64,000 nucleotides of DNA from Natronosalvus rutilus (GCF_024204665.1 NZ_CP100355.1:682001-746000), one strand, 5' to 3'. Positions 17,719 to 34,178 are shown, counted from the first letter of the stretch. The notes: generated by a model from the sequence alone, not told the origin. Made by a program: numbers and translations.

Positions 17719-19101
17719 ATGACGGCAGGACCGCCGATCGCCGACCTTCACTTCGACGACGCACCGGACGTTGATTCCGTTCCCGGGCCGAAAACCCGGT
17801 CGCTGCTCGAGAAACAGCGAGAAATCGACAGCAGTGCGGTTGCGTACCCGAACGACATTCCGATCGCGTTCGAGGAGGGCAAGGGGGCGACGGTCCGCGA
17901 CGCCGACGGCAACACGTACATCGATCTCTTCGCGGGGATCGGCGTGCTCAACGTCGGCCACGCCAATCCCTACGTCCTCGAGGCTGTCCACGAGCAGGCC
18001 GACAAGTTCGTCCACACCGTCGACTTTCCGACTGAGGCGCGACTCGAGCTGATCGAAAAGCTCGACGAGATCGCCCCGGACGGCCTACAGGGCCAGAACA
18101 AGGTCGTCTTCGGCGGTCCGACGGGGAGCGACGCTATCGAGGCGTCGATCAAACTCTCGAAGTACAACACCGGCGGCGACGGCCTTATCGCCTTCCGTGG
18201 GGCGTACCACGGCGCGACGACGGGGGCGATGAGCGTCACCTCGAACAAGAAGTTCAAGGGCCACTACACGCCCCTGCTCGCAGACGTCGTTCACGCGCCA
18301 TATCCCCATCCGTTTCGCCAGGACAAGACGCCCGACGAGGCGGTCGATCACGCGCTCGAGGAGGTGCAGGCGATCGTCGAGGATCCCTACGGGGGATTGG
18401 CCAACCCGGCCGGGATCATCGTCGAGCCGATCCAGGGCGAGGGCGGCATCGTCACGCCGCCGGCTGGGTTCCTGCAGGGGGTACGCGATATTGCCGACGA
18501 CAACGGCGTCGTGCTCGTCTTCGACGAGATTCAGAGCGGGCTCGGCCGTACCGGTCAGTGGTGGGCCTGCGACTGGGAGGGCGTTACCCCAGACGCGATG
18601 ACCTCCGCGAAGGCCCTCGGCGGGGTGGGATTCCCGCTGTCGGCAACCATCTACCACGAGGACCTCGACACCTGGGGATCGGGCGACCACGCCGGCACCT
18701 ACCGCGGCCACGTCGTGGGAATGCGCGCCGGGACCCGCGCCATCGAGTACATTCAGGAACACGATCTCCTGACCCACGCTCGAGACCTCGGTGAGTACAT
18801 CCAGGGTCGACTCCTGGAGGCGGCCGAGGAAACGGACCGTCTGGCCGACGTCCGCGGGAAGGGACTGTTCATCGGCGCCGAGTTCGTCGACTCGGACGGG
18901 ACGCCGGACGGCGATCTCGTCGACGCGATCCAGACCTACTGTTTCGAACGCGGGGTCCTCGTCTGGACGGCCGGTCGCCACGGGAACGTCCTTCGGTTGC
19001 TCCCACCGCTCGTCCTCACCCGCGACCTGGCCGAGACGGCCCTCGACGTCGTCGTGGAGGCGATCGAACACGTGACTGAGGAGGCGAAACGGACGGCCTG
19101 A
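17719..19101 (+). CDS. Class III aminotransferase, diaminobutyrate-transaminase-like
   Basis: 460 residues of the PLP fold-type I class III family. Conserved parts are [19 protein letters not shown] and [18 protein letters not shown] (about 43-80), the phosphate-binding [33 protein letters not shown], the PLP-ring aspartate in [15 protein letters not shown], the Schiff-base lysine in TSAKALGG, and [10 protein letters not shown]. The GPTGxxAxEAxxKL segment is the form seen in 2,4-diaminobutyrate transaminases (EctB/Dat/DoeD type). Within this island, conversion of diaminobutyrate to aspartate semialdehyde is the favoured role. GABA or ornithine transamination is the alternative. ridA follows after 20 bases. 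Confidence 0.82.
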
Positions 19102-19121
19102 GCCGCCGCTCGAACGAAACG

Positions 19122-19511
19122 ATGTCCGACACCACCCCACTCGAGACCGACGGCGCACCGAGCAACGACAATCCCTACTCACAGGGGGTTCTCGCCGGCG
19201 ACACGTGCTACGTCTCCGGCTACGGCCCGGTCGATCCGGATACCGGCGAGGTCGTGAACGGCGACGTCGAAGCCCAGACCGAGCGCGTCCTCGAGAACGT
19301 CGCTGCCGTGGTCGAGGCAGCCGGCGGCGACGGTCTCGCCGACGTCGTCAAGGTGACCGTCTACCTCACCGACCTCGAGGACTACGACCGGGTCAACGAG
19401 GCCTACGGCGCACGGTTCGGCGAAGAACCGCCAGCACGCGTTTGCGTCGAGGTCTCGAGATTACCCGACGACGTTCGAATCGAGATGGACGCGATCGCGT
19501 TTCTGGGGTAG
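19122..19511 (+). CDS. RidA family enamine/imine deaminase
   Basis: 129 residues of the YjgF/YER057c/UK114 family. Conserved features are NDNPYSQGVLAGDTCYVSGYGPVDPDTGE at the N-terminus, the helix ENVAAVVEAAGGDGLADVVKVTVYLTDL, and the arginine-containing ARVCVEVSRLP near 108-118 that binds the carboxylate. RidA proteins hydrolyse reactive enamines released by PLP dehydratases. It lies 20 bases after the aminotransferase, so probably shares its transcript. A threonine-dehydratase-like lyase is encoded in the same island. Confidence 0.9.
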   Translation: MSDTTPLETDGAPSNDNPYSQGVLAGDTCYVSGYGPVDPDTGEVVNGDVEAQTERVLENVAAVVEAAGGDGLADVVKVTVYLTDLEDYDRVNEAYGARFGEEPPARVCVEVSRLPDDVRIEMDAIAFLG

Positions 19512-19656
19512 TTGGGCAGTCGGGCAGTCGGATCAGTTTGCGTCCTCACGGGGGGACGATGGTCGGGGTCGGTCCGCGACTTCGTAGAGGTGCGGTCCGG
19601 TCGATCGGTTCACCGCCGCCTCGACACAGAAACAGGGTGTCACCTGTTACCCATAG

Positions 19657-19664
19657 TTAAATAT
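19657..19664 (+). promoter_or_regulatory. TATA box of the first M20 gene
   Basis: TTAAATAT lies 25-32 bases upstream of ATG 19689, giving this gene its own leaderless promoter despite the same-strand ridA gene upstream. Confidence 0.6.
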
Positions 19665-19688
19665 CCGCCAGTCCTATCAGCACCAGGT

Positions 19689-20969
19689 ATGCCCTACGAC
19701 GCACACACGAGCGTGGCCGACCTCCGTCGGGCGTTTCACCGGCATCCGGAACCCGGCTGGCGCGAGTTCCGGACGACCGCCCGCGTCGTCGAGGAACTCG
19801 AGTCCCTCGACGTCGACGACATCGCAATCGGACGAGAGGCGCTCGCACCCGACAAACGGATGGCCGTCCCGTCGGCCGCCGAGCTCGAGCCCTGGCTCGA
19901 GCAGGCCCGTGGGGCTGGCGTCCGATCCGACCTCCTCGATCGGATGGAGGGGGGTTACACGGGGGTCGTCGCGGTGCTCGAGCAGGGGCCAGGGCCGACG
20001 GTCGGGCTGCGGGTTGACCTCGACGGCATCTCGATGGCGGAGTCGAGCGACGACGACCACCGGCCGACTGCCGAGGGGTTCCAATCGGAACACGAGGGCT
20101 ACATGCACGCCTGCGGCCACGACGCCCACATCGCGATCGCCCTGGGGACGATCGACGCGGTACGGAACAGCGACTTTTCGGGGACGCTGAAGGTGTTCTT
20201 CCAGCCGGCCGAGGAAATCTCGGGCGGCGGGAAGGCGATGGCTGAGGGCGGGTACGCCGACGACCTCGAGTACCTGTTCGCGCTCCACATTGGCCTCGAC
20301 CACCCGACAGGGGAAATCGTCGCGGGCATCGAGAAACCCCTGGCCATGGCCCACCTGACGGCCACGTTCGAGGGGGCGAGCGCCCACGCCGGGAAGGCGC
20401 CAAACGAGGGCGGCAATGCGATGCAGGCGGCGGCGACGGCGATTCAGAACGCCTACGGCATCCCTCGCCACAGCGACGGGATGACCCGCGTGAACGTCGG
20501 CCGAATCAAGGGTGGCACCGCGAGCAACGTCATCGCCGAGGAGATCACGATCGAGGCGGAGGTCCGCGGCGAGACTACGGGGCTGATGGAGTACATGCGA
20601 ACGGAACTCGAGCGCGTCTGCTACGCAGCCGCGGAGATGCACGACTGCGACGTAACCCCGCGAGTCATCAGCGAGTCGCCCCGGGCGGACAGCGACCCTG
20701 CACTGCGCGAACTCGTCGGCTCGGTCGCGCGGAACGTCCAGGGGGTTCACCAGGTGACCGAGACGACCGACTTCGGCGTCAGCGAAGACGTCACCTACCT
20801 GATGGAGCGCGTCCAGGCCGGCGGCGGTCTGGCGTCGTACGTCCTCGTTGGGACGGACCACCCGACGAACCACCACACGCCGACGTTCGACGTCGACGAC
20901 GAGAGCCTCGAGATTGGCGTGGCGGTCCTGTCGAATGCGATTCGGGCGTGTTCGAGTCAACGGCCGTAG
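19689..20969 (+). CDS. M20 family amidohydrolase/deacylase, copy 1
   Basis: 426 residues from ATG 19689. It begins LRRAFHRHPEPGWREFRTT. Metal-binding motifs are MHACGHDAH (about 139-147) and the catalytic FFQPAEE. The dimerisation (lid) domain follows (TFEGASAHAGKAPNEGGNA), then the C-terminal metal ligand region (TDHPTNHHTPTFDVDD). It resembles AbgA/N-acyl amino acid amidohydrolases. It is a clear paralogue of the 26885-28192 protein. In this island the likely reaction is removal of acetate from N-acetyl-diaminobutyrate (or its hydroxy form), replacing the bacterial DoeB, which belongs to the AspA/AstE family. The substrate is an inference. Confidence 0.85.
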   Translation: MPYDAHTSVADLRRAFHRHPEPGWREFRTTARVVEELESLDVDDIAIGREALAPDKRMAVPSAAELEPWLEQARGAGVRSDLLDRMEGGYTGVVAVLEQGPGPTVGLRVDLDGISMAESSDDDHRPTAEGFQSEHEGYMHACGHDAHIAIALGTIDAVRNSDFSGTLKVFFQPAEEISGGGKAMAEGGYADDLEYLFALHIGLDHPTGEIVAGIEKPLAMAHLTATFEGASAHAGKAPNEGGNAMQAAATAIQNAYGIPRHSDGMTRVNVGRIKGGTASNVIAEEITIEAEVRGETTGLMEYMRTELERVCYAAAEMHDCDVTPRVISESPRADSDPALRELVGSVARNVQGVHQVTETTDFGVSEDVTYLMERVQAGGGLASYVLVGTDHPTNHHTPTFDVDDESLEIGVAVLSNAIRACSSQRP

Positions 20970-21092
20970 TACGGCCAAGTAGGGCCTGGTGCGGCCAGAT
21001 ACGGCCAGAACCGCGCCCACCTGGACGTCTTCTCGTCTCGTCATGTTCGTTCGATCAGAAGGATTAATCCCCGGGCTCCCTGTGTATTGGTT

Positions 21093-21740
21093 ATGAGCCA
21101 GGACGACGTGCCGGCGTCCCTCCAGACGGCAGCGGACTCGGATCGGCCGCGGGGCATTCTCACCCCCTCCGATCGCGACTTCCTGCTCGGCCGGAAGACC
21201 GACTACACCGATCACTCGAAGAAACAGAAGCGCAATCGGATCCGGCGCCGGGTGCGGAACGCGATTCTCGACTTCAGTATACTCTTTGCCTACATGGAAG
21301 AACGCGACCGCGAGACGGTGTTCGATCCCGACGCCGAGGACCGCGACGCCTACACCCAGGGAATCACCGACGTGCTCGCCTTTCTGCATCTGGGAACGAT
21401 GGGCTATCACACGCCGTTCAAGGACATGCTCTCGGAGGGCGTCGGCAAGGCCGAACAGCGATTGGCCGGATCGAACTACCGAATGGTCAACGTCGAGTTC
21501 AACGTCGAGCCAGTCGGGCAGATCGACGTCGACGCGGTGATCGAGAAACTCGAGAACGAGGAGTTCGCTCAACTCACCGACGAGGAACTTCGCGCGTTCG
21601 TTCGGCTGTTGACGATGTCCGAAGGATTCTCGCCTGAGACGGCCCGCGAGGAGATCAAAGATCGCGTCGACGAGTTCGCCGAGCGAGTGGCCGAGAGTGC
21701 CGAGGCTCGAGAGCGGACGCTCGAGGAACTGACGAACTGA
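21093..21740 (+). CDS. Halobacterial protein of unknown function
   Basis: 215 residues from ATG 21093 (MSQDDVPASLQ). It begins with RPRGILTPSDRDFLLGRKTDYTDHSKKQ and a basic helix NRIRRRVRNAILDFSILF, a pattern I recall from a family found only in Halobacteria. The C-terminal part is helical and acidic, with LTDEELRAFVRLLTMSEG. It may be a regulator, but no recognised DNA-binding domain is evident. It sits between the M20 gene and the transporter. The last codons lie in an 8-bp repeat array that continues beyond the stop. Confidence 0.75.
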   Translation: MSQDDVPASLQTAADSDRPRGILTPSDRDFLLGRKTDYTDHSKKQKRNRIRRRVRNAILDFSILFAYMEERDRETVFDPDAEDRDAYTQGITDVLAFLHLGTMGYHTPFKDMLSEGVGKAEQRLAGSNYRMVNVEFNVEPVGQIDVDAVIEKLENEEFAQLTDEELRAFVRLLTMSEGFSPETAREEIKDRVDEFAERVAESAEARERTLEELTN

Positions 21741-21778
21741 CGAACTGGCGAATTGACGAATTGGCGAACTGACGGCCG
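21731..21778. repeat. 8-bp tandem repeat array across a stop codon
   Basis: Six degenerate 8-base units: GACGAACT, GACGAACT, GGCGAATT, GACGAATT, GGCGAACT, GACGGCCG. The stop codon of the upstream gene (21738-21740) lies in the second unit. Since 8 is not a multiple of 3, gain or loss of units would change the C-terminus. Confidence 0.85.
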
Positions 21779-22007
21779 ACAGCGGCCGCTGGCTAGTCCA
21801 GATCCCACTCTACCCACACCCAATCGACGAACAGTCGCGTATTCGGTTCATTGTTTCTCAGAGCGCTGCTATCTGTGAATAGGCAATTCATGATCTGAGC
21901 AACATTTCTGAGAGACCCGTGGCGAAAACATCCTCGAGTCGAGGGCCGCTCGAGCGACCGTCAAATAAACGCAATCTGTAGATAGTTTACGAGAGTGAGA
22001 AACACTT

Positions 22008-22027
22008 ATTGTTTACGACGTAAATGG
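22008..22027 (+). promoter_or_regulatory. Putative operator: island motif ATTGTTTACGAC, site 2
   Basis: ATTGTTTACGACGTAAATGG contains the palindrome TTTAC-GAC-GTAAA. It closely matches the element upstream of the aminotransferase at 17654-17673. A half-like copy lies 25 bases upstream. Confidence 0.45.
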
Positions 22028-22101
22028 TAGCGGTATGCCAACACGAAGCATGGCAAAATGTGGGTGGAGGCTCAGTCAATCAGTGAGCTGTCGCTCGGTT
22101 C

Positions 22102-22118
22102 GGGGGGGGGGGGGGGGG
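22102..22118 (+). repeat. Homopolymeric 17-G tract before the transporter start
   Basis: Seventeen consecutive G bases end nine bases before ATG 22128. The tract sits where a ribosome binding site would be and ends a 28-codon upstream frame. Such runs are prone to slippage in vivo and to length errors in sequencing. Confidence 0.9.
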
Positions 22119-22127
22119 TGAGTCGGG

Positions 22128-23774
22128 ATGAGTGACGCCGAGAAGGGGGCGGTCGAGACGTTCTTCGAGGAAATCGATCCAGTCGTCTTCGCCTTCGGGG
22201 CGCTGTTGACCGTCGGCGTGATCGCGGCGTTCTTCATCAACCAGAGTGCCGTCACAAAAACGATCAACGACGTTTACAGCTGGGTGGTCGAGTACCTGAA
22301 CTGGGCACTGTTGGTAATCGTGTTCCTGATCGTCCTCTTCCTCTTGTTCCTGATCGTCGGGCCGTGGGGCAAGATCAAGATGGGGGACGAGGATCCGGAG
22401 TACAGCTTCCTGTCGTTCTTCGCGATGTTGTACTCCGCCGGGTTCGCCGCGGGGGTCGTGTTCTGGGGGCCGACCGAAGCGCTATTTTACTACGACAACC
22501 CATCGCCGCTGTTCGGCGTCGAAGGGGGGACGGCCGAGGCGATACCGATCGCGATCCAGCAGACGCTATTCCACTGGGCGCTGCCCCAGTTGGCCGTATT
22601 CACGATCATGGGGCTCGCGATCGGTTACTTCGCGTACAACTACGAGGACGTCCCGTTGCGGGTCTCGTCGGCGTTGACGCCGATTCTCGGGAAGGAGAAT
22701 CTCGACGGCCCGGCCGCGAAGGTCGTCGACATTCTCGCCGTCTTCGCTACGATCGGTGGCGTGGCGACGTCGCTCGGCTTCATCGGGAGCCAGTTCATCG
22801 CCGGCCTCGATTACCAGTGGGGAATCGATCTGGGGAACGTCGGCATCCTCCTCGTGGTGACCACGATGACGCTCCTGTTCACCATCTCGATGGTACTCGG
22901 GGTCGACAGAGGGATCCGCCGGCTGTCGAACTTCAACATGATCCTGTTCGTCGTACTCATGCTCGCGACGTTCATTCTGGGGCCGACGCTGTTCTTGCTC
23001 CTGCTCGGTTCGCAGGCAATGGGCGGCATGATCGCCGACTTCACGTCAATGAGTCTCTACACCGGCACCGGCTCCGAGGACGGGACGGGCTGGATGAACT
23101 CCTGGACCGTCTTCTACTGGGCGTGGGCACTCTCGTGGTCGCCGTTCGCGGGACTGTTCATCGCCCGTATCTCTAAAGGCCGTACCGTCCGCGAAGTCGC
23201 CTTTACCGGGATCGGCGCGACCTCGGCCGCGACTATCCCGTGGTTCACGTTCGTCGGCGGTACCGCGCTGCGATACCACCACACTGGAACGGCAGACTTC
23301 AGCAACGTGATTGCCAACAACACGCCGGAGATCTCGGGCTTCATCCTCTTCGAGGCGTTCCCCCTGGGGACCGTGTTCATGATCGCCTTCATGATCCTGG
23401 TGACGACGTTCTTCATCACCTCGGCGGACTCATCGACGCTCGCCGTCTCGATGATGACGACCGGCGGGAAAGCGAGACCCTCGACGATCAATCGGATTTT
23501 CTGGGGCGTCGTCCTTGGTCTGACCGCCGCAATCCTCATGATCATCGGCGGCAGCGACGGGACGGGCGCGCTTCAGAACGCAGTCATCATCACCGGGGCA
23601 CCGTTCGCGTTCGTCTGTTTCGCCGCGATGCTCTCGCTGATTAAGGACTTCGCGTCGAAGCACGGCCGCGTGTTACTGCAGGACGAGACCGTTCTTATCG
23701 GCTCGAGCAGGAAAACGGAAACTGATTCACCGCCGACCGGTCCCGGAGGGCCCGTCGAATCCGACGACGACTGA
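22128..23774 (+). CDS. BCCT family transporter (betaine/choline/carnitine, compatible solutes)
   Basis: 548 residues with about twelve hydrophobic segments. Diagnostic parts are FLSFFAMLYSAGFAAGVVFWGPTEALFYY (the glycine-rich segment after the second helix), FHWALPQLAVFTIMGLAIGYFAYNY, and the signature YWAWALSWSPFAGLFIARISKGRTVREV (about 325-352), whose tryptophans form the substrate box. BCCT carriers import quaternary amines and ectoines by Na+ or H+ symport. The position inside a solute-degradation island suggests uptake of its substrate (ectoine, hydroxyectoine or betaine). The short C-terminal tail lacks a long osmosensing domain. Confidence 0.93.
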   Translation: MSDAEKGAVETFFEEIDPVVFAFGALLTVGVIAAFFINQSAVTKTINDVYSWVVEYLNWALLVIVFLIVLFLLFLIVGPWGKIKMGDEDPEYSFLSFFAMLYSAGFAAGVVFWGPTEALFYYDNPSPLFGVEGGTAEAIPIAIQQTLFHWALPQLAVFTIMGLAIGYFAYNYEDVPLRVSSALTPILGKENLDGPAAKVVDILAVFATIGGVATSLGFIGSQFIAGLDYQWGIDLGNVGILLVVTTMTLLFTISMVLGVDRGIRRLSNFNMILFVVLMLATFILGPTLFLLLLGSQAMGGMIADFTSMSLYTGTGSEDGTGWMNSWTVFYWAWALSWSPFAGLFIARISKGRTVREVAFTGIGATSAATIPWFTFVGGTALRYHHTGTADFSNVIANNTPEISGFILFEAFPLGTVFMIAFMILVTTFFITSADSSTLAVSMMTTGGKARPSTINRIFWGVVLGLTAAILMIIGGSDGTGALQNAVIITGAPFAFVCFAAMLSLIKDFASKHGRVLLQDETVLIGSSRKTETDSPPTGPGGPVESDDD

Positions 23775-23891
23775 GCTGCCAGCCTCTCCCTACCCCGCTG
23801 GCTGCCATCTCGTTCGGCTCCCGTGTCGATTTTCTCCCACACTATATCGACGGTCGCAGTCATCGACCCGTTCCCTGCCATCCTATAACAA

Positions 23892-23900
23892 GTTTTAATG
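23892..23900 (+). promoter_or_regulatory. TATA box of the second aminotransferase gene
   Basis: GTTTTAATG lies about 24-32 bases before ATG 23924. The adjoining TGTAC-GAG-GTACA palindrome (23899-23911) would overlap the initiation region. Confidence 0.5.
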
Positions 23901-23911
23901 TACGAGGTACA
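23899..23911 (+). promoter_or_regulatory. Palindromic operator candidate TGTAC-GAG-GTACA
   Basis: A perfect 5-bp inverted repeat with a 3-base centre, between the TATA box and the start codon of the aminotransferase. A repressor bound here would block initiation. It has the same arm-spacer-arm form as TTTAC-GAC-GTAAA at 22011-22023. Confidence 0.45.
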
Positions 23912-23923
23912 CATAATCTGTGT

Positions 23924-25285
23924 ATGGATAGGGACACCACGGAACCCGACGCGGACGCGCTTCCGGGCCCGAACGCCCAGCGGTGGGTCGACTTCCATCA
24001 GGCGTACTCCGCGCCCAGCGAGTACTCCCACGACTTCGTCTGGGACATCACGCGCGAGGCCGACGGCCCGTTCGTCACGGACGTCGACGGGAACGTCCTG
24101 CTCGATTTCACCTGCCACATCGGTGCTGCGCCCCTCGGCTACAACAACGAGAAGATCCTCGACAAACTCGAGGCGTTCGACCTCGTCGAGCCGATGAAGA
24201 TCGCCGGCCAGGACCTGTACTTCGGCGCCGGACCGACCCCCGAGGAGTCGGCAGTGCCGGGCTCGAGTCACCTCATGGAGAAGTTGGTCGACATCTCGAG
24301 CCAGTACGGGATGGACACGGTGTTCCTCTCGAACTCCGGCGCGGAGGCGATGGAGAACGCGATGAAGATCACGAACGATCACCGCGCCCCGGCAAAGTAC
24401 GGCGTCGCCTTCGCCGGCAGCTTTCACGGCCGGACCCTGGGGACCCTCTCGATCACAAAGTCCAAGGAGGTCTACACGCGTCACTACCCCCAGATCAGCG
24501 GAATCGAGACGGTACCGTTCTGTGCCGACCGCGGCTGTGACGCCGACAGTTGTGACTGCGGATTCTTCGCTGGCAGCGACTCGCAGTTGCGCCGCCTGCT
24601 CGCGCCCGAAGGCGGCCACATCGACCCCGACGAAATCGCCTTCCTCGCGCTCGAGCCCATCCAGGGCGTCGGCGGTTACCGCTTCCCCAGCGAGGCGTTC
24701 ATGCAGGAGGTCGCGGACGTCACCGACGAGTACGACATCCCGCTGGTCGTCGACGAGATCCAGGCCGGCGTCGGCCGCACCGGCGAGATCTGGGCCTCGG
24801 ATCACTACCCGATCGAACCCGACGTCATCGCGAGCGCGAAGGGGCTTCGCGTGGGTGCGACGATCTCGCGCTCGGAGCTCTTCCCCGACGAGAAGAACCG
24901 GCTTGGCTCGACCTTCGGCGGCGGCGACCTGCTCGGCTCGATGATGGGCGCGTTCACGCTCGAGGCCATCCAGGAGCACGACCTGCTCGCGAACGCCCGC
25001 GAGCGCGGCGAGCAGGCGAAAGAACTCCTGCGCGACGACGCCCCGGAGTACGTCGAGGACGTCCGCGGCAAGGGGCTGATGCTGGCCGTGGAGTTCGACA
25101 CCCCCGATCGCCGGACCGCCGTGGTCGAGGCCGCCCTCGAGCGCGGCCTCCTGACCCTCGGCTGTGGCAAGAAGACGATCCGGCTGCTCCCGCCGCTCGA
25201 CTCGAGCGAGCGTGAGATCGAACTGGGAATCGGCATCTTCCTCGAGGCGATCGAGGCGGTCGGACCGAACGCGAAAGTGGCGTAA
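23924..25285 (+). CDS. Class III aminotransferase with a four-cysteine insert
   Basis: 453 residues. Class III motifs are FLSNSGAEAMENAMKI, SFHGRTLGTLSITKS, the PLP aspartate in LVVDEIQAGVGRTGEIWA, the lysine in IASAKGLRVGATIS, and the C-terminal KTIRLLPPLD. It resembles GABA/lysine-type aminotransferases rather than the first copy. An insert after GIETVPF carries cysteines at about 200, 205, 210 and 212 (CADRGC and CDC), which could bind metal or an Fe-S cluster. Pig GABA aminotransferase also has an Fe-S cluster, but with a different spacing. In context it may use diaminobutyrate or 4-amino acids. Confidence 0.85.
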   Translation: MDRDTTEPDADALPGPNAQRWVDFHQAYSAPSEYSHDFVWDITREADGPFVTDVDGNVLLDFTCHIGAAPLGYNNEKILDKLEAFDLVEPMKIAGQDLYFGAGPTPEESAVPGSSHLMEKLVDISSQYGMDTVFLSNSGAEAMENAMKITNDHRAPAKYGVAFAGSFHGRTLGTLSITKSKEVYTRHYPQISGIETVPFCADRGCDADSCDCGFFAGSDSQLRRLLAPEGGHIDPDEIAFLALEPIQGVGGYRFPSEAFMQEVADVTDEYDIPLVVDEIQAGVGRTGEIWASDHYPIEPDVIASAKGLRVGATISRSELFPDEKNRLGSTFGGGDLLGSMMGAFTLEAIQEHDLLANARERGEQAKELLRDDAPEYVEDVRGKGLMLAVEFDTPDRRTAVVEAALERGLLTLGCGKKTIRLLPPLDSSEREIELGIGIFLEAIEAVGPNAKVA

Positions 25286-25649: not shown

Positions 25650-26888
25650 TTACTCGAGCGAGCGCTCGAGTACCGACACACCCTCGAGGCCGTCTAGCGA
25701 GTCGAGCACGCCCTCGAGGTGCTCCCGTCCGCTGCCCTCGAGGCCCACGGTCACCGGAACCCGATTCGGCTCGTCGACGGAACCGCGTCGTGTGCGCTCG
25801 AGGACGTCCAGTTCGGCGCCCTCGGTCTCGACGGTCTCCGCGACGTCACCAACGGTCGAGGGCCACCCGTCGACGGCCAGTCGCGCCTCGACGTAGCGTC
25901 CGAGTTCGTGGAGGCCGGTCCGCGTCAGTTCGGCGTGTTCGGTGAGGCCGACGTTGCCCCCGGAGACGATCACGCCGACGTGTGCTCCCTCGAGGTCCAC
26001 TGCCGTTTCCTCGGAAATGGCAGCCGCCAGCGGCGTCGCGCCCGCGCTCTCGACAACGGTCTTTGCGCGTTCAGCCAGCAACGCCACCGCGGTGGCGATC
26101 TCTCGGTCGGTGACGCTGACCACGTCGTCGACGACCTCGCGGGCGATCGCGAAGGTGGTCTCCAGCATCCGGGTGTCGGCGATCCCCTCCGCGACGGTGT
26201 CGATGGTCTCGAGTTCCCGAATTTCGCCCGCCTCGAGCGAGGGTTTCGCGTGAGCGGCTCCCTCCGGTTGAACCCCGATCACGCGGGTCACTGGATCGTG
26301 GGCCTTCAGCACCGTCGCGATACCCGAAATCAGCCCGCCGCCGCCGATGGCGACGAGGACGGTGTCGATCTCGGGGTACTGCTCGAGCAACTCGAGGCCG
26401 ATCGTTCCCTGGCCGGCGACAATCTCCTCGTCGTCGAAGGGGTGGACGAACGTCTCGCCGGTCTCGTCTGCTCGCTCGAGAGCGTACTCGTACGATCGCT
26501 CGTAGATGTCGCCCTCGACGACCACCTCGGCTCCGTAGCCGCGCGTGGCCTCGATCTTCGCCGCGGGGGTCACCTCGGGGACGACGATGGTCGTCTCGAT
26601 GCCGAGCAACTGGCCGGCTAGAGCCACGCCCTGGGCGTGATTTCCCGCACTCGAGGAGACGACCCCCGCTTCTCGCTCCGCGCCGGAGAGCTGGGTCATC
26701 TCGTTGTACGCTCCGCGAATCTTGAACGAGCCCGTTCGCTGGGCGTTCTCGAGTTTGAGCCCGACCGACGCCGCGCCGCTCATCTCGGCGAAGGTGCGCG
26801 ACGTATCCAGCGGTGTGCGGTGGACGACGTCGTTGATACGCTCCTGGGCTGCTTCGACGTCCTCGAGGGTAACGCGGCTGTCGCTCAT
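25650..26888 (-). CDS. Threonine-dehydratase-like PLP lyase with C-terminal ACT-like domain
   Basis: 412 residues of PLP fold type II. The lysine motif is GSFKIRGAYNEM (about 52-63), the substrate loop SSSAGNHAQGVA, and the phosphate-binding glycine loop IGGGGLISGIA. The last 90 residues look like an ACT domain (VPVTVGLEGSGREHLEGVLD). This is the form of biodegradative or biosynthetic threonine ammonia-lyase. In bacterial hydroxyectoine gene clusters a homologue (EutB) is present, so here it may dehydrate a 3-hydroxy-diamino acid. Ordinary threonine deamination is the conservative call. Its ATG overlaps the stop of the upstream M20 gene, so the two are co-translated. Confidence 0.85.
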   Translation of the reverse strand: MSDSRVTLEDVEAAQERINDVVHRTPLDTSRTFAEMSGAASVGLKLENAQRTGSFKIRGAYNEMTQLSGAEREAGVVSSSAGNHAQGVALAGQLLGIETTIVVPEVTPAAKIEATRGYGAEVVVEGDIYERSYEYALERADETGETFVHPFDDEEIVAGQGTIGLELLEQYPEIDTVLVAIGGGGLISGIATVLKAHDPVTRVIGVQPEGAAHAKPSLEAGEIRELETIDTVAEGIADTRMLETTFAIAREVVDDVVSVTDREIATAVALLAERAKTVVESAGATPLAAAISEETAVDLEGAHVGVIVSGGNVGLTEHAELTRTGLHELGRYVEARLAVDGWPSTVGDVAETVETEGAELDVLERTRRGSVDEPNRVPVTVGLEGSGREHLEGVLDSLDGLEGVSVLERSLE

Positions 26889-28192
26889 GCCCCGTTTTCG
26901 TCGCGACGAGACACCGGGTGTCGTCGCTCGAGTTCGCGAATCGTCTCGACGAGCACGTCGACGCCGTGTGCGAGACTCCGCTCGTCGACGTCGAACGTCG
27001 GCGTGTGGTGGCTCGTCGGATGATCGGTGCCGACGATGAGGTACGACGCGAGTCCCCCTTCCTCCTGGACGCGTTCCATCAGGAAGGTCGCGTCCTCGCT
27101 CGCGCCGAAGTCAGCCGAGGGGAGCACGTGCTCGACGCCCGCCACGTCGGCTGCGACCTCGCTCACGAGCGCCTGTAGTTCGGGGTCGCTGTCGGCCCGC
27201 GGCGACTCGCTGACGATGTCGACGTCCGCTCGACAGCCGTGAAGCGTCGCCGCCGACTTTATCGTTCGCTCGAGTCGCTCCTTCACGTACTCCATCAGCG
27301 CCGTGGTCTCGCCGCGGGCTTCAGCGACGATGTGGGCCCGTTCGGCGATGACGTTGCTCGCGGTTCCCGCCTCCGCACGACCGACGTTCACGCGGGTCAT
27401 TCCGTCGCTGTGGCGGGGGATGCCGTAGGCGTTCTCGATCGCCGTGGCCATGGCGTGTAAGGCGTTATCCCCCTCGTTGGGCGCCTTTCCCGCGTGTGCG
27501 GAGGTCCCCTCGATCGTCGCGTCGACGTGGCACATCGCCAGGGGTTTCTCGATGCCCGCGACGACCTCTCCCGTCGGGTGGTCGAGCCCGACGTGGATCG
27601 CCAGCAGGTAGTCGAGATCCGCCGCGAACTCGCTCTTCGCCATCGGACACCCGCCGCCGCCGGTCTCCTCGGCTGGCTGGAAGAAGACGACCAGTCGCCC
27701 GGCGAAGTCGCTCTCTACGATTGCCTCGAGCGTGGCCAGCCCCCAGGTCATGTGGGCGTCGTGGCCGCAGGCGTGCATCGTGCCGTCGACCGCCGACCGA
27801 AAGCCCTCGGTGGCCGGTTCGTGATCCGCGTCGGTCGATTCCTCGATGAACAGGCCGTCGATGTCGACTCGAAGCCCGATGGTCGGCCCGTCGCCTCGAT
27901 CGAGGACCGCGACGGCACCGGTGGTGCCCCCCGTCATTCGCTCGAGGAGGTCCTCGCGAACACCGGCTTCACGCGCCCCTTCGAGCCAGGGCTTCAGTTC
28001 CTCGTCGTCGGGGACGGCCATTCGGTCGGCGGGATCGTACGCGTCTGCTCCGACGGCGAGTTCGTCGACGTCGAGGGATTCGAGTTCCTCGACGACGCAG
28101 GCGGTCGTCCGGAACTCGCGCCAGGCCGGTTCTGGATGCCGGTGAAAACTGCGACGGAGGGGGACGAGTCGGTCCCGTATCGGCTCGCTCAT
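26885..28192 (-). CDS. M20 family amidohydrolase/deacylase, copy 2
   Basis: 435 residues, about the same length and layout as the 19689 protein. It starts LRRSFHRHPEPAWREFRTT, and has MHACGHDAH, FFQPAEE, a lid domain (TIEGTSAHAGKAPNEGDNA) and TDHPTSHHTPTFDVDE. The two copies are evident paralogues that may separate ectoine- from hydroxyectoine-derived substrates. It is the first gene of a two-gene operon with the PLP lyase (ATGA overlap). A reverse-strand TGTATAATTAAG (28215-28226) is the likely TATA region, about 25-34 bases before the start. Confidence 0.85.
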   Translation of the reverse strand: MSEPIRDRLVPLRRSFHRHPEPAWREFRTTACVVEELESLDVDELAVGADAYDPADRMAVPDDEELKPWLEGAREAGVREDLLERMTGGTTGAVAVLDRGDGPTIGLRVDIDGLFIEESTDADHEPATEGFRSAVDGTMHACGHDAHMTWGLATLEAIVESDFAGRLVVFFQPAEETGGGGCPMAKSEFAADLDYLLAIHVGLDHPTGEVVAGIEKPLAMCHVDATIEGTSAHAGKAPNEGDNALHAMATAIENAYGIPRHSDGMTRVNVGRAEAGTASNVIAERAHIVAEARGETTALMEYVKERLERTIKSAATLHGCRADVDIVSESPRADSDPELQALVSEVAADVAGVEHVLPSADFGASEDATFLMERVQEEGGLASYLIVGTDHPTSHHTPTFDVDERSLAHGVDVLVETIRELERRHPVSRRDENGA

Positions 28193-28214
28193 GCGAGACG
28201 CTGACGCGACCCAC

Positions 28215-28254
28215 GCACTTAATTATACACAATCAGTGTTAACGACGGGTACAC
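28215..28254. promoter_or_regulatory. Divergent promoter with island-type motifs
   Basis: On the reverse strand, ATTGTGTATAATTAAG (28232-28217) combines the ATTGTNYA motif with the TATA box of the M20 gene. On the forward strand, AGTGTTAACGACGGGTACAC (28235-28254) resembles the ACGAC-centred sites at 17654 and 22008. One regulator could therefore control both the M20/lyase operon and the hydroxyacid operon. Confidence 0.45.
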
Positions 28255-28339
28255 AAAAAGGATAAGGGAACTGGTGACAACCGTAGCGTACGAACGTTTC
28301 AGGGACGGTGGGCCGTCGCTGTGACGGAGGAATCTTCAC

Positions 28340-29311
28340 ATGAGCACGAACCCAGACGTCATCGTTCTCCGGGAGGGGACGGAAGGCCTGTCGATGGAAT
28401 CGTACGCCGAGACGCTTCGCGAGCGCCTCCCCGAACGCACCGTCGAACTCGCTCGTACGCCGGCGGCCGAGCGCGAACTCGTTTCGCAGGCGCGAGTGGT
28501 GACCGGAATCACGATCGAGGAGGCCATGCTCGAGCACGCCGAGCGCCTCGAGTTGTTCGCGTGTACGTTCGCCGGGACCGACCACGTCCCGATGGACGCG
28601 CTGGCCGACCACGGCGTCGCCGTGACCAACGCTGGCGGCATCCACGCACCCGGCATCGCGGAGCAGTCCATCGCTAACATGCTCGTCTTCGCGCGAAACC
28701 TCCACGAGGGGTGGCGCCGCAAGCAAAATGGCGAGTGGCGTCACTTCCAGTCACACGAGTTCACCGACAGCACTGTGACGGTCGTCGGCCTCGGCTCGAT
28801 CGGTCAGCAGATCGTCACACGGCTCGAGGGGTTCGACGTCGAGACGATCGGTATCCGGTACACGCCGTCGAAGGACGGCCCGACCGACGAGGTCCTCGGT
28901 TTCGAGGTGGACGACGTGCACGAGGCGTTCTCGCGCAGCGACTACGTCGTCCTGGCGTGCCCGCTCAACGACACGACCCACGGCCTCGTCGGCGAAGCGG
29001 AACTGGCGACGCTCCCACCGAACGCCGTCGTCGTCAACGCCGCTCGAGGGGGGCTCGTCGACACCGACGCGCTCGTTTCGGCGCTGCAGTTCAACGGCAT
29101 CCGGGGGGCCGCCCTCGACGTCACCGACCCCGAGCCACTGCCCGGCGACCATCCGCTGTGGGACCTCGAGAACTGCCTCATCACGCCTCACACGGGCGGC
29201 CATACACCGAAACACTGGGACCGGCTGGCCGACATCGTCGCGCACAACGTCCGCGCGCTGGAGGCGGGCGACGCCCTCGAGAACGCCGTCCTCGAGCCGA
29301 CGTCGGGGTGA
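28340..29311 (+). CDS. D-2-hydroxyacid dehydrogenase (NAD-binding)
   Basis: 323 residues. The nucleotide-binding loop is VVGLGSIGQQI (about 151-161). The catalytic arginine is in NAARGGLVD, the glutamate in TDPEPLPGDHPLW, and the histidine in ITPHTGGHTPKHW. It interconverts 2-keto and D-2-hydroxy acids. A Shine-Dalgarno-like GGAGG sits ten bases before the ATG, and the transcript probably has a leader, unlike most neighbours. The next gene, a flavin/Fe-S oxidoreductase of the D-lactate dehydrogenase type, starts 7 bases after its stop. The two may act on the same hydroxy acid from opposite sides. Confidence 0.9.
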   Translation: MSTNPDVIVLREGTEGLSMESYAETLRERLPERTVELARTPAAERELVSQARVVTGITIEEAMLEHAERLELFACTFAGTDHVPMDALADHGVAVTNAGGIHAPGIAEQSIANMLVFARNLHEGWRRKQNGEWRHFQSHEFTDSTVTVVGLGSIGQQIVTRLEGFDVETIGIRYTPSKDGPTDEVLGFEVDDVHEAFSRSDYVVLACPLNDTTHGLVGEAELATLPPNAVVVNAARGGLVDTDALVSALQFNGIRGAALDVTDPEPLPGDHPLWDLENCLITPHTGGHTPKHWDRLADIVAHNVRALEAGDALENAVLEPTSG

Positions 29312-29318
29312 CCGAGCG

Positions 29319-32300
29319 ATGGCCACCGACGACACCGCCTCCACGACCGATCGGGCCGACCGGACGGGGGAGCCGGACTCGATAGAAGCGCCGGACCCGA
29401 ACCGGTCCGATTCGTCCGCGGACCGGGGAGCCGACCCCGCGGCGGATTCCCGGGCGAATTACGACTACGTCGGCGGGACCATCGATCGACCGGCTCTGGT
29501 CTCAGATCTGGACGCCCGAATCGACGGCGAGGTGCGATTCGACGAGTACACCCGCCAACTGTACGCGACCGACGCGAGCGCGTACGAACGGACGCCCGTT
29601 GGCGTGGTTCTGCCGCGGTCGACGGCGGACGTTTCGAGCGTCGTCGGCTACTGCGCCGACAACGACATCCCCGTCTTGCCGCGCGGCGCCGGCACGAGCC
29701 TCGCCGGCCAGGCGGTCAACGAGGCCGTCGTCCTCGACTTCACGGCGCACATGGACGCAGTCGGCACGATCGACCCCGACGAACGACGGGCGACCGTCCA
29801 GGCGGGGGCCGTTCTCGCCGACCTGAACGCGGCCCTCGAGCCCTACGACCTGAAGTTCGCGCCCGACCCCGCCGCCGGCAACCGCAGCACGGTCGGCGGC
29901 GCCATCGGGAACAACTCGACGGGCGCCCACTCGCTGCAGTACGGCAAGACCGACGCCTACGTCGAGGCGTGCGAGGTCGTCCTCGCCGACGGCTCCGTCG
30001 AGCACTTCGGTGAGGTGACGGTCGCCGACCTCCGAAGTACGGCCGATCCGGACGGCGACCTCCTCGAGCGCATCTACGAGGCGTTGGGCCGCGTGATCGA
30101 CGAGGAGGCAGGCGCTATCGGCGAGGCCTTCCCGCAACTGAAGCGCAACGTCTCGGGGTACAACCTGGACCGCCTGGTCGCGGAGGCCTACGGACGGCCT
30201 GACGCGTTCGACGAGCGTGGCGACGGCCCGCTCGAACTCGACGGCGAACCCGACCCCGACGCGACGGTCAACCTCGCCCGGGTGTTCGCCGGCAGCGAGG
30301 GGACGCTCGGCGTCGTAACGGAAGCGACGGTCTCGCTCGAGCCCGTGCCCGAGACCACGTCCGTGGCGCTGTTGACCTACCACGACCTGCTCGAGGCGAT
30401 GGCCGACGTCGATACGATCGTCCGCAACCACGATCCGGCGGCAATCGAGGCGATCGACGACGTGCTGATCGACCTCGCCGAACGAACCGAGGAGTTCGCG
30501 GCCGTCGCCGAACGACTCCCCGCGGGCACCGAGACCGCCTTACTCGTCGAGTTCTACGCCAAGACCGACGGCCACGGCCGCGAGCAGGTCGCGGACCTGC
30601 TGGCCGACCGGCTGCCGGACGCGGACGTCCCGGATCCGGGGGCCGATGAAGCGGATTCGGAAGACGAGGACACCGCGGCCAACCTGGAACACGACCCCAT
30701 CCGGGCCTTCGACGCCCTCGAGGCCCACGATCCGCAAGGCATCGCCGAACTCTGGAAGCTCCGCAAGAGCGCGGCCCCGATCCTCCTCTCGCGAACTTCC
30801 GACGCGAAGCACATCTCGTTCATCGAGGACACGGCCGTCCCGACCGAGAACCTGGCGGCCTACGTCGCGGACTTTCAGGACGTCCTCGAGGAGTACGATA
30901 CGTTCGCCAGTTTCTACGCCCACGCGGGGCCGGGCTGTATGCATATGCGGCCGCTGGTCGATACCAAGAGCCCGGCCGGACTCGAGGCGTTCGAGTCGCT
31001 CGCGGACGACGTCACCGACCTCGTCGTCGAGTACGGCGGCTCGGTGTCGGGCGAGCACGGGGACGGCCGCGCCCGCACGCAGTGGAATCACAAGCTCTAC
31101 GGCGACGACGTGTGGGACCTCTTTCGCGACCTGAAGACGGCCTTCGACCCCGACTGGCTGCTCAACCCCGGGAACGTCTGTGGCGACCACGATATGACCG
31201 AGCACCTCCGGTTCGACCCCGACTACGCGTTCGACCCGGGGCTCGAGCCGGCCCTGAACTGGGACAACGAGAACGGCTTCCAGGGGATGGTCGACCTCTG
31301 TCACGGCTGTGCCGGCTGTCGGAGCGGCCAGGAGACGACCGGCGGCGTGATGTGCCCGACGTACCGCGCGGCCGAGGAAGAGAGCCTCAGCACCCGCGGC
31401 CGGGCGAACGCGCTCCGGGGGGCGATAAGCGGCGAACTCGACGCCGACGCGGTCGACGAGGAGTTCCTGGCCGAAATCGTGGACCTCTGTATCGGCTGCA
31501 AGGGCTGTGCGCGCGACTGCCCGAGCGAGGTGGATATGGCGAAGCTCAAAGCCGAGGTGGAACACGCCGCCCACCAGCGAAACGGGGCGTCCCTCCGGGA
31601 CCGCCTCTTCGCGAACGTCGACCGGCTCAACGCCGTCGGCTCCGCGCTCGCGCCGCTGTCTAACTGGGCAGCGTCGCTACCGGGATCGGGGACGGTCGCC
31701 GAGAAAACGATCGGAATCGCTCGCGAGCGCGACCTTCCGACGTTCGCGAGCCGGAGCTTCGAGGACTGGTTCGCCGCGCGCGGCCCCCGGGTCTCGCTCG
31801 AGGCGGCGGACCGGAAGGTGCTCCTCTTCCCGGATACGTACACGAACTACAACCATCCGCGGGCGGGCAAGGCAGCCGTCCAGGTCCTCGAGACGGCCGG
31901 CGTTCACGTCCGACTTCCCGACGGCGTGACCTCGACCGGACGCCCGGCCCACTCGAAGGGCTTCCTCGACCTGTCCCGCGAACGCGCCCGGACCAACGTC
32001 GACGCGCTGACGCCGTTCCTCGAGGACGGGTGGGAGGTCGTCCTGGTCGAACCCTCCGACGCGGTCATGCTCCAGTCGGATTACCTGGACCTGCTGTCGG
32101 GTCCCGACGTGGAACGACTCGTGAGGAACGCCTACGGCGTCTGTGAGTACCTCGATCGATCCGACCTGGCTAGCGAACTGCCGGCCGACGGGGCCGGCCG
32201 TCGTCTGACCTACCACGGCCACTGCCACCAGAAGGCGACGAAGAAGGACGGCCACGCCGCGGCCGTCCTCGAGACAGTCGGCTACGAGGTCGACATGCTG

Positions 32301-32528
32301 GACTCGGGCTGTTGCGGGATGGCCGGCTCCTTCGGCTACGAGGCCGAACACTACTCGCTCAGCCGGGCCATCGGCGACATCCTGTTCGACCAGGTCGACG
32401 CGAGCGACGGGGAGGTGGTCGTCGCGCCGGGTGCGTCCTGTCGAACGCAGCTATCGGATTACGACGGGTGTTCGGATCCGCCCCACCCGATCGAGGCGGT
32501 TGCGGCGGCGCTCGCGGAGCGATCGTGA
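29319..32528 (+). CDS. Fused FAD-linked oxidase and Fe-S oxidoreductase (D-2-hydroxyacid/D-lactate dehydrogenase type)
   Basis: 1069 residues. The first 50 are a polar extension. An FAD-binding PCMH domain follows (VLPRGAGTSLAGQAV, GNRSTVGGAIGNNSTGAHSL), then the C-terminal FAD oxidase domain (YGGSVSGEHGDGRARTQW near 570-588). A ferredoxin-like module binds two [4Fe-4S] clusters (LCHGCAGC..MCPTY and LCIGCKGCARDCPSE). CCG-type cysteine motifs lie at the end (HGHCHQK and DSGCCGMAGSFGYE). This joins GlcD-like and GlcF-like functions in one chain, as in several Dld-type proteins. Electrons would pass to the quinone pool. The exact acid substrate is unknown. Confidence 0.9.
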   Translation: MATDDTASTTDRADRTGEPDSIEAPDPNRSDSSADRGADPAADSRANYDYVGGTIDRPALVSDLDARIDGEVRFDEYTRQLYATDASAYERTPVGVVLPRSTADVSSVVGYCADNDIPVLPRGAGTSLAGQAVNEAVVLDFTAHMDAVGTIDPDERRATVQAGAVLADLNAALEPYDLKFAPDPAAGNRSTVGGAIGNNSTGAHSLQYGKTDAYVEACEVVLADGSVEHFGEVTVADLRSTADPDGDLLERIYEALGRVIDEEAGAIGEAFPQLKRNVSGYNLDRLVAEAYGRPDAFDERGDGPLELDGEPDPDATVNLARVFAGSEGTLGVVTEATVSLEPVPETTSVALLTYHDLLEAMADVDTIVRNHDPAAIEAIDDVLIDLAERTEEFAAVAERLPAGTETALLVEFYAKTDGHGREQVADLLADRLPDADVPDPGADEADSEDEDTAANLEHDPIRAFDALEAHDPQGIAELWKLRKSAAPILLSRTSDAKHISFIEDTAVPTENLAAYVADFQDVLEEYDTFASFYAHAGPGCMHMRPLVDTKSPAGLEAFESLADDVTDLVVEYGGSVSGEHGDGRARTQWNHKLYGDDVWDLFRDLKTAFDPDWLLNPGNVCGDHDMTEHLRFDPDYAFDPGLEPALNWDNENGFQGMVDLCHGCAGCRSGQETTGGVMCPTYRAAEEESLSTRGRANALRGAISGELDADAVDEEFLAEIVDLCIGCKGCARDCPSEVDMAKLKAEVEHAAHQRNGASLRDRLFANVDRLNAVGSALAPLSNWAASLPGSGTVAEKTIGIARERDLPTFASRSFEDWFAARGPRVSLEAADRKVLLFPDTYTNYNHPRAGKAAVQVLETAGVHVRLPDGVTSTGRPAHSKGFLDLSRERARTNVDALTPFLEDGWEVVLVEPSDAVMLQSDYLDLLSGPDVERLVRNAYGVCEYLDRSDLASELPADGAGRRLTYHGHCHQKATKKDGHAAAVLETVGYEVDMLDSGCCGMAGSFGYEAEHYSLSRAIGDILFDQVDASDGEVVVAPGASCRTQLSDYDGCSDPPHPIEAVAAALAERS

Positions 32529-32999
32529 GGTCAGTCGTCGGTCTTCGATTTTCTGGCCGCGAGCGGATCAGACCCTCGCTCGAGCGGCCACTGGTGGCCG
32601 ACCGCCGTCGAACTCCACAATCGGGACGGTCGCACCACCTTTCTCGGGGACGCTCGATGAGAAGCTCGTCGACGAGGTCGTCAGACAGCTCGGTTCGTAC
32701 ATCGGTCTCGAGCAGCGCTGACCACCGACTCCGATCGAATTTCCCTTCGTGGGGGTGATGGCGTCTGCCGAGCAACGAAACGTCCGAATACGGAGACGAA
32801 GCGAACGTCAGTGACGTCGATCCGTTCCGGAACGTCGAGAGACTGATCAGCCGATAGCCACGGGAGACTCACGGCCAGAGTCCGTGAGGTGCCTTCTCTG
32901 TCGCGATCCCTATTGGCCGTTCCTCGTTCGGGTACGAGTCCTCACCGTCGTCTCGAGAGCGACGTTCGCGGCTCGAATGTGCAACGGGTCGGAGTGCAA
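32529..32999. other. 471-base stretch without a convincing gene
   Basis: Several short frames exist, but none has good family features. One forward frame ends with LDEKLVDEVVRQLGSYIGLE before a TGA at 32719-32721, which looks more protein-like than the rest. It has no plausible start and may be the remnant of a lost gene. Confidence 0.4.
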
Positions 33000-34178
33000 T
33001 CAGGCGGTAAACAGTCGCCGTGGGAAGTCGGCTAACGTCTCCGCGCCAGTTCCCGTCACGTGGAACGTCTCACTGATCTCCATCCCAATTTCCTCCGTCC
33101 AGATGCCGGGGATCATGTGGAACGTCATGTCCTCCTCGAGGACGGTCTCGTCGCCTGGGCGAATGCTCGCGGTGTGTTCTCCCCAGTCCGGCGGGTAGCC
33201 GAGCCCCATCGAGTAGCCGATTCGGTCCTCCTTTTCGAGGCCGTACTGGGCGATCGTGTCGCGCCAGGCCTTCTCGACGGCCTCGCAGGTAACTCCCGGC
33301 TCGACGGCGTCGAGGGCTGCCTCGATGCCCTCGACCACGATGTCCGCAGTTCGCTCGAGTTCCGCGGGCGGGTCGCCAACGAACGTCGTCCGGGCCAGCG
33401 GCGAGTGGTATCGGTGGCGACACCCCGACAGTTCGATGATGACGGGGTCACCGTCCTCGAACGGGCGGTCGGTCCACGTGAGGTGTGGGGTTCCGGTGTG
33501 GTCGCCCGAGGGCATCAACGGGACGATCGCTGGGTAGTCGCCGCCGTAATCGTCGGTGCCGGTGATCAGCGCGTCGTAAATCGCGGCCGCCGCCTCGTAC
33601 TCGGGGACGCCTTCCGCGATCGCGTCGAGGCCCGCCTGCATCGCGTTCTCCGAGATGCGAGCGGCCTCGCGCATGTACTCGAGTTCCTGCTCTGATTTCT
33701 TGACCCGGACCCAGCCGACCAGGAGCGTTGCGTCCTCGAATTCGGCTTCCGGGAGGTTTTCCTGGAGTCGCGTGTAGGACTTCGCGGTGAAGTAGGATGC
33801 GTCCATCTCGAGGCCGATTCGGCCGTCAGCGACCTCGAGGTCCTCGAGGACGCCCGCGACGTAGTCCATCGGGTGGAGGTCGTACGGTGAGTGGACGTGG
33901 TCGTCGCTGTACGCCCGGATGCTCTCCTGGGAGAGGGTGGTCGTCGCCCGGGCACCGTTAGCGTCCATCTCGCGACCGACCCAGACCGGTTCGTCGCGGT
34001 CGACCGTGACGACGACGGCCTGGTGGACGTAAAACGACCAGCCGTCGTAGCCGGTAAGATAGTTCATGTTGGCCGGATCGGTGACGACGATCGCGTCGAG
34101 TTCCTCCTCGCGCAACCGTGTCTTCGCTCGCTCGACCCGACGCTCGTACTCGCGTTCGTCGAAGACGTCTCGAGACAT
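33000..34178 (-). CDS. doeA: Ectoine hydrolase-like M24 family protein (DoeA/EutD)
   Basis: 392 residues of the creatinase/prolidase fold. The N-terminal domain has NYLTGYDGWSFYVHQ (about 40-54). The catalytic domain has GGDYPAIVPLMPSG, TPHLTW, GYPPDWGEHT, IRPGDETVLEEDMTFHMIPG and ends PRRLFTA. These match what I remember of Halomonas DoeA and rhizobial EutD, which open the ectoine ring to N-acetyl-diaminobutyrate. The first metal-ligand region of metallo-M24 peptidases is replaced (IIELSGCRHRYHSPLART), fitting a creatinase-like, non-peptidase enzyme. Transcribed alone, against the hydroxyacid operon. The symbol is by homology; activity is unproven in archaea as far as I know. Confidence 0.82.
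   Translation of the reverse strand: MSRDVFDEREYERRVERAKTRLREEELDAIVVTDPANMNYLTGYDGWSFYVHQAVVVTVDRDEPVWVGREMDANGARATTTLSQESIRAYSDDHVHSPYDLHPMDYVAGVLEDLEVADGRIGLEMDASYFTAKSYTRLQENLPEAEFEDATLLVGWVRVKKSEQELEYMREAARISENAMQAGLDAIAEGVPEYEAAAAIYDALITGTDDYGGDYPAIVPLMPSGDHTGTPHLTWTDRPFEDGDPVIIELSGCRHRYHSPLARTTFVGDPPAELERTADIVVEGIEAALDAVEPGVTCEAVEKAWRDTIAQYGLEKEDRIGYSMGLGYPPDWGEHTASIRPGDETVLEEDMTFHMIPGIWTEEIGMEISETFHVTGTGAETLADFPRRLFTA

Follow-up and report, generated by a model that had tools for sequence, protein, structure and literature searches.

A co-inherited haloarchaeal gene island with an M24 protein of the DoeA/EutD clade, predicted to import and catabolise ectoine

A 64,000-nucleotide stretch of the Natronosalvus rutilus genome (GCF_024204665.1, NZ_CP100355.1:682001-746000; hereafter the window) carries at positions 17719-34178 a gene island that includes a protein of the M24 fold, assigned here to the DoeA/EutD clade of ectoine hydrolases. 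The M24 protein, an M20 hydrolase (M20b) and two class III aminotransferases (AT3a and AT3b) form a real module, gained and lost together among haloarchaea. With a probability of roughly 0.8, we propose that the island is a mobile or transferable module with which haloarchaea import and catabolise ectoine. The present analysis establishes its gene content, the clade of the M24 protein, the loss of the M24 metal ligands and the co-inheritance of the partner genes.

The M24 protein and its co-inherited partners

The solved structures closest to the M24 protein in a search of the PDB were those of Halomonas elongata DoeA (6twk and 6twj; 384 bits, E ~1e-113), and the best prolidase reached 107 bits (E 1e-29). 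The protein is 44-48% identical to bacterial DoeA and about 56% (55.6%) identical to a Priestia protein. In a maximum-likelihood tree of 69 sequences, comprising 63 DoeA-family proteins, five M24 paralogues from the same genome and a Pyrococcus prolidase, it fell among the DoeA-family sequences, and a long branch with a Shimodaira-Hasegawa-like approximate likelihood ratio test (SH-aLRT) support of 99 set off the prolidase-like paralogues and the Pyrococcus prolidase. The archaeal sequences adjoined a supported bacterial clade that includes the known DoeA proteins, in a tree whose root is unsure and in which several outgroup branches are long. Prolidases carry D, D, H, E and E as the five M24 metal ligands; in these places the window protein has E249, P260, Y322, I356 and S369, a pattern nearly identical to the E, P, Y, M and T of five known DoeA proteins; the separate M24 paralogues of the same genome retain the metal ligands. 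Furthermore, when archaeal type-1 proteins are taken together with the bacterial DoeA family, about 90 positions, those of the GYDxWSFY and YPPDWGE motifs among them, are kept in about 93% or more of the sequences. The initial annotation, made from the sequence of the window alone, had quoted motifs of this protein, all of which occur in the translation, and had associated it with DoeA/EutD; the phylogeny bears this out, placing it by sequence within the DoeA/EutD clade, apart from the Xaa-Pro dipeptidases. A prolidase reading of the protein is ruled out by the tree, the PDB search and the replaced metal ligands.

A second haloarchaeal DoeA-like paralogue (L111:26881-28062; also L045, L065 and L080), with 55-57% identity and the same loss of metal ligands, differs at W47, D331 and G333, positions otherwise invariant in the family, and adjoins ABC-type transporter genes and/or IclR regulators. 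It may possibly act on another substrate, such as hydroxyectoine.

Orthologues were surveyed in 391 Halobacteria genomes with thresholds placed at the gaps in E-value and identity that the result tables showed, and gene neighbourhoods were compared at 60 M24 loci from nine haloarchaeal families. M24 orthologues are patchily distributed, being present in 144 of the 391 genomes. M20b occurs in 137 of these 144 genomes and in one of the 247 genomes lacking M24, AT3a in 138 and four, and AT3b in 135 and none, respectively; all 135 genomes with a top-tier AT3b orthologue thus carry M24, although the lower boundary of AT3b is blurred by a widespread paralogue of up to ~63-65% identity. All four genes occur together in 129 genomes. 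The loss of AT3b in two genomes (G187 and G196) is only apparent, the gene running off the end of a contig. Within ten genera that have members both with and without M24, the partner genes track M24, for example in g30, with 23 genomes carrying it and 22 without. The second class III enzyme, which had been listed in the initial annotation beside the diaminobutyrate-transaminase-like AT3a, is present, but its role needs correction, as AT3b is as obligate a partner of M24 as AT3a.

The genes most often found near M24 at the 60 loci are a D-2-hydroxyacid dehydrogenase (2HADH; 50 loci), M20 (47), AT3b (40), a lyase (38) and a BCCT transporter (33), followed by AT3a (28), the hypothetical gene hyp21 (25), an FAD-binding and Fe-S oxidase (FADox; 19) and RidA (14). 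De novo clustering adds glutamate dehydrogenase (19 loci), aldehyde dehydrogenase (ALDH; six), aldehyde:ferredoxin oxidoreductase (AOR; five) and an IclR regulator (five), names which were taken from the sequence and from the annotation of Halomarina. The outer flanks vary between families while the island core stays constant. Chance or simple synteny is ruled out as an explanation of the neighbourhood, since the flanks change while the core persists and the genes track one another within genera. A plasmid of Halomarina sp. BND7 bears a compact full island that also encodes AOR, a second DoeA-like M24 protein of the 57% type and an IclR regulator, and Halopiger is a further case of the island on a plasmid. 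Conserved neighbourhood, co-inheritance and within-genus tracking thus agree with the earlier view of the island as one catabolic module. Glutamate dehydrogenase, which stands beside M24 in 19 of the 60 loci (L034-L089) and is not in the window, could regenerate 2-oxoglutarate for the transaminases.

Enzymes of the downstream steps

Across the DoeA loci of the genome collection, the partner of DoeA is DoeB in Proteobacteria and M20 in Bacillota, Desulfobacterota, Spirochaetota and Haloarchaea; DoeB was not found in the M20-bearing DoeA loci of the three bacterial phyla. Because M20 partners DoeA where DoeB is missing, M20 is the natural candidate for the deacetylase, and we infer that an M20 hydrolase fills the DoeB slot. 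Against the DoeB2 model NF038260, M20a and M20b scored 115 and 108 bits, both far under the cut-off of 550. For the transamination step, AT3a scored 401 bits against the NCBIfam diaminobutyrate transaminase models (cut-off 671), and both island transaminases are just 28-30% identical to bacterial (Leisingera) DoeD. Ten aldehyde dehydrogenases and three AOR-family genes are encoded in the genome, and one of the ten aldehyde dehydrogenases (L107) is about 60-64% identical to the aldehyde dehydrogenases inside six other islands. Bacterial DoeC was an ambiguous guide to the enzyme of this genome, many aldehyde dehydrogenases matching it at 32-40%, and the L107 orthologue, at about 63%, is the better lead. 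The role of DoeC is probably taken by an aldehyde dehydrogenase or AOR encoded outside the island.

The lyase had been likened to the EutB-type dehydratases of hydroxyectoine clusters, an assignment that its scores do not sustain: it reached 268 and 245 bits against the EutB models NF005680 and TIGR02991, below the respective cut-offs of 413 and 413.35, and passed the threonine ammonia-lyase model TIGR01127 (386 against 378.75 bits). It also bears a C-terminal extension that EutB lacks, and the genome encodes two paralogues that are 47% and 42% identical to it. EutB identity is thus ruled out by the model scores.

The commonest neighbour of M24, 2HADH, accompanies the lyase in all 38 loci with a lyase. 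As a dedicated island gene it holds only partly, for it also occurs in 15 genomes without M24, mostly standing alone in those inspected. In a cross-phylum comparison of 80 DoeA loci, EutC was found in 36, a D-2-hydroxyacid dehydrogenase in nine and the two together in none, an exclusivity that depends on about two independent lineages. The dehydrogenase of Lentibacillus and Oceanobacillus is of another, GhrB-like subfamily (27% identical to 2HADH) and adjoins EutB, M20 and a D-amino-acid transaminase, with RidA in two of three loci and no EutC. The lack of any locus with both the dehydrogenase and EutC among the 80, and the association of the dehydrogenase with EutB in Lentibacillus and Oceanobacillus, suggest that a D-2-hydroxyacid dehydrogenase replaces EutC downstream of the lyase. 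FADox scored 480/1350 bits against the YdiJ model.

Layout of the island

The interval holds all eight gene families named in the initial annotation, each where it had been placed, together with three open reading frames that had been overlooked, hyp21, 2HADH and FADox (Table 1). For M20a, 19689 is the probable start, the reading frame being open from 19512. Tight spacing between AT3a and RidA (20 base pairs) and between 2HADH and FADox (7 base pairs), and the overlap of the lyase gene with M20b (4 base pairs), suggest transcription units. The interval is flanked on the left by the DNA ligase gene ligA and on the right by genes for RIO kinase and MCM; because both flanks are housekeeping genes, the interval is a discrete island and its initially proposed boundaries fit. 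A genome search for EctC (PF06339) gave no match, and the same search also matched none of its control genomes, so that the absence of ectABC from the genome is likely rather than proven.

Table 1. Genes of the island at positions 17719-34178 of the window
Feature	Position	Strand	Assignment	Evidence
AT3a	17719-19101	+	Class III aminotransferase, diaminobutyrate/gamma-aminobutyrate transaminase-like; candidate diaminobutyrate transaminase	Pfam Aminotran_3
RidA	19122-19511	+	Enamine/imine deaminase	TIGR00004 137 bits, above cut-off 106
M20a	19689-20969	+	Amidohydrolase, second copy	TIGR01891 266 bits, cut-off 154; 66% identical to M20b
hyp21	21093-21740	+	Conserved, function unassigned	Recurs in 25/60 islands
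BCCT	22128-23774	+	Transporter, candidate ectoine importer	PF02028 496 bits
AT3b	23924-25285	+	Class III aminotransferase, tightest partner of M24	Genome co-occurrence
Lyase	25650-26888	-	Threonine ammonia-lyase-type pyridoxal phosphate (PALP) lyase	TIGR01127 386 bits, cut-off 378.75
M20b	26885-28192	-	Amidohydrolase, candidate N-acetyldiaminobutyrate deacetylase	TIGR01891 259 bits
2HADH	28340-29311	+	D-2-hydroxyacid dehydrogenase	Pfam 2-Hacid_dh and 2-Hacid_dh_C; gene oriented divergently from M20b
FADox	29319-32528	+	FAD-binding and Fe-S oxidase, D-2-hydroxyacid dehydrogenase (YdiJ)-like, 1069 amino acids	Domains FAD_binding_4, FAD-oxidase_C, Fer4, CCG
M24	33000-34178	-	Predicted M24-fold ectoine hydrolase (DoeA/EutD clade)	PDB search, TIGR02993, tree, metal ligands

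The transporter is a member of the BCCT family by its PF02028 score and no other was detected in the genome. Seventeen consecutive G at 22102-22118, nine bases upstream of its start codon, form the only G/C run longer than six in the window, and close relatives have 6-7 G at that site before the BCCT gene; the run would be either a site where slippage controls the transporter or an artefact of the assembly. The protein hyp21 is strongly conserved, with no Pfam match over the cut-off, and its structure prediction was poor (predicted local distance difference test score, pLDDT, 55).

Proposed pathway, alternatives and known systems

We propose the following scenario, in which the steps and their substrates are predicted from homology and gene context. 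The BCCT transporter would import ectoine, and probably also hydroxyectoine. The M24 protein, which lacks the M24 metal ligands, would open the ring to yield N-acetyl-2,4-diaminobutyrate, and the M20 hydrolase, in the slot of the missing DoeB, would deacetylate this to diaminobutyrate. The class III transaminases AT3a and AT3b may then transfer amino groups to 2-oxoglutarate, yielding aspartate semialdehyde. Aspartate semialdehyde would be oxidised by an aldehyde dehydrogenase or AOR, genes for which are linked to the island in other haloarchaea, an orthologous aldehyde dehydrogenase being encoded elsewhere in this genome. More speculatively, the threonine ammonia-lyase, RidA, 2HADH and FADox could process a hydroxylated or 2-oxo intermediate, such as 3-hydroxydiaminobutyrate from hydroxyectoine. 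The bacterial route from DoeA through DoeB and DoeD to DoeC, which had been invoked for the island, is thus retained for the M24 protein of the DoeA clade and not for DoeB or a linked DoeC; the accompanying expectation that some steps use different enzymes accords with the M20 hydrolase in place of an AstE/AspA-type DoeB and with the divergent transaminases.

Several observations weigh against ectoine catabolism by the island. The M24 protein scored 461 bits against the NCBIfam DoeA model TIGR02993, under the equivalog cut-off of 613, and because of this it is filed as a DoeA-clade protein rather than a certified DoeA; the Priestia DoeA-family protein likewise scores under the cut-off (531 bits). 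No AstE/AspA-type DoeB/EutE (PF04952) was found in the genome by a search whose control was positive in Escherichia coli, and the island holds no DoeC-type gene, no aldehyde dehydrogenase of any kind and no AsnC regulator. The model nearest to the transporter is that for glycine betaine (421/650 bits). Two genomes (G250 and G256) carry M24 without close M20b, AT3a and AT3b. Furthermore, the Fisher statistic for the M24 partners (p < 1e-90) ignores kinship, a worry reduced by the within-genus comparison.

The M24 fold, and the names aminopeptidase and amidohydrolase given to the neighbouring genes in PMC13188858 and in database annotation, would suit a prolidase or dipeptidase within a cluster for peptide and amino-acid catabolism, which we regard as highly improbable given that five of five M24 peptidase metal ligands are replaced, that both the tree and the PDB search group the protein with DoeA, and that the other M24 paralogues of the genome keep their ligands. 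It is also improbable that the module degrades some other cyclic amidine or N-acetylated diamino acid of which ectoine is merely a close analogue: identity to characterised DoeA is just 46-48%, and the second DoeA-like paralogue is changed at W47, D331 and G333, so that specificities may vary, but the ~90 conserved positions, GYDxWSFY and YPPDWGE among them, are common to the archaeal type-1 proteins and the bacterial DoeA family, and ectoine is common in hypersaline habitats.

A more tentative variant, which we consider unlikely though worth setting out, has ectoine and hydroxyectoine converge on 4-amino-2-oxobutanoate and proceed through D-malate to oxaloacetate, by-passing aspartate semialdehyde and replacing the EutC step in haloarchaea and, independently, in some Bacillota. 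The entry compound might arise from diaminobutyrate through alpha-transamination, or from 3-hydroxydiaminobutyrate through the lyase with RidA; 2HADH might then form 4-amino-2-hydroxybutanoate, the other transaminase malate semialdehyde, the aldehyde dehydrogenase or AOR D-malate, and FADox oxaloacetate. Such a branch would account for the two obligate transaminases, for the frequency of 2HADH (50/60) and its presence in all 38 lyase loci, for the mutual exclusivity of D-2-hydroxyacid dehydrogenase and EutC in the 80 DoeA loci, and for the uptake by Lentibacillus and Oceanobacillus of a different subfamily (27% identical) with EutB and without EutC. However, reducing and then re-oxidising seems wasteful, 12 of the 50 2HADH loci have no lyase nearby, 2HADH is present in 15 genomes without M24, FADox is near M24 in just 19 of 60 loci, the exclusivity comes from about two independent lineages, and a hydroxyacid dehydrogenase of undefined role is already listed in some bacterial clusters (Czech et al., 2018; PMC5924519).

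Like doeABXCD of H. elongata (PMC3187862), the island is a single catabolic cluster with a DoeA-clade M24 hydrolase and filled deacetylase and transaminase slots. It differs from doeABXCD in having M20 for DoeB and non-orthologous transaminases, in being without a linked DoeC or the AsnC/Lrp regulator DoeX, and in adding the lyase, RidA, 2HADH, FADox and BCCT; with no DoeB/EutE, no linked DoeC and no DoeD orthologue, it is not a canonical doeABCD/eutDE cluster. The Bacillota eutD-eutC-atf/abgB-thrA-adh clusters, such as that on a Priestia plasmid, share a DoeA 55.6% identical to the M24 protein and an M20 amidohydrolase for DoeB, whereas they have their own EutB and EutC, a cystathionine-synthase-like enzyme, homoserine dehydrogenase and an aldehyde dehydrogenase, and no class III pair. 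The DoeA clusters of Lentibacillus and Oceanobacillus (L152, L156 and L165) resemble the island in combining DoeA, D-2-hydroxyacid dehydrogenase, M20 and a EutB-like lyase without EutC; L156 and L165 share RidA and an aldehyde dehydrogenase, and L156 has a class III transaminase beside M20. Their partner enzymes are only 27-35% identical to those of the island, and these clusters were thus assembled independently. They also add a D-amino-acid transaminase and an alanine racemase, beside EutB in L156:8998-18739 and L165. Genes annotated as doeA-doeB also occur on Klebsiella plasmids (NZ_CP110550.1 and others, H52-H55), some of them from human samples.

DoeA homologues were reported from Euryarchaeota in 2011 with no other pathway genes near them (PMC3187862), and ectoine consumers were later given as Proteobacteria only, in a study that also stressed the EutABC steps as untested (Czech et al., 2018; PMC5924519). 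A haloarchaeal ectoine cluster is already published as a prediction in Applied and Environmental Microbiology (April 2026; PMC13188858), where more than 100 archaeal EutD matches lay in clusters beside genes for an aminopeptidase, an aminotransferase and a BCCT transporter, and were called provisional, with no biochemistry. Those clusters agree with the island in EutD, an aminopeptidase (M20), an aminotransferase and BCCT; the main text of that report is without a co-inheritance or metal-ligand test and without mention of 2HADH, FADox, the lyase or two obligate transaminases. The present work adds a test by phylogeny and metal ligands, the obligate co-inheritance of four genes, corrected gene assignments and the pattern of 2HADH and EutC.

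Import and catabolism of ectoine remain our preferred reading of the island. The near-perfect co-inheritance singles out enzymes for assay, and the D-2-hydroxyacid dehydrogenase marks an unexplained step in the biochemically untested hydroxyectoine route. The island enzymes are mostly unlike those that bacteria use on ectoine, the protective molecule of neighbouring bacteria. Haloarchaea share brines with ectoine-making bacteria, and the module is present in about one third of the sampled species; a widespread ectoine-eating module would, if true, define a cross-domain flow of nutrients in brines.

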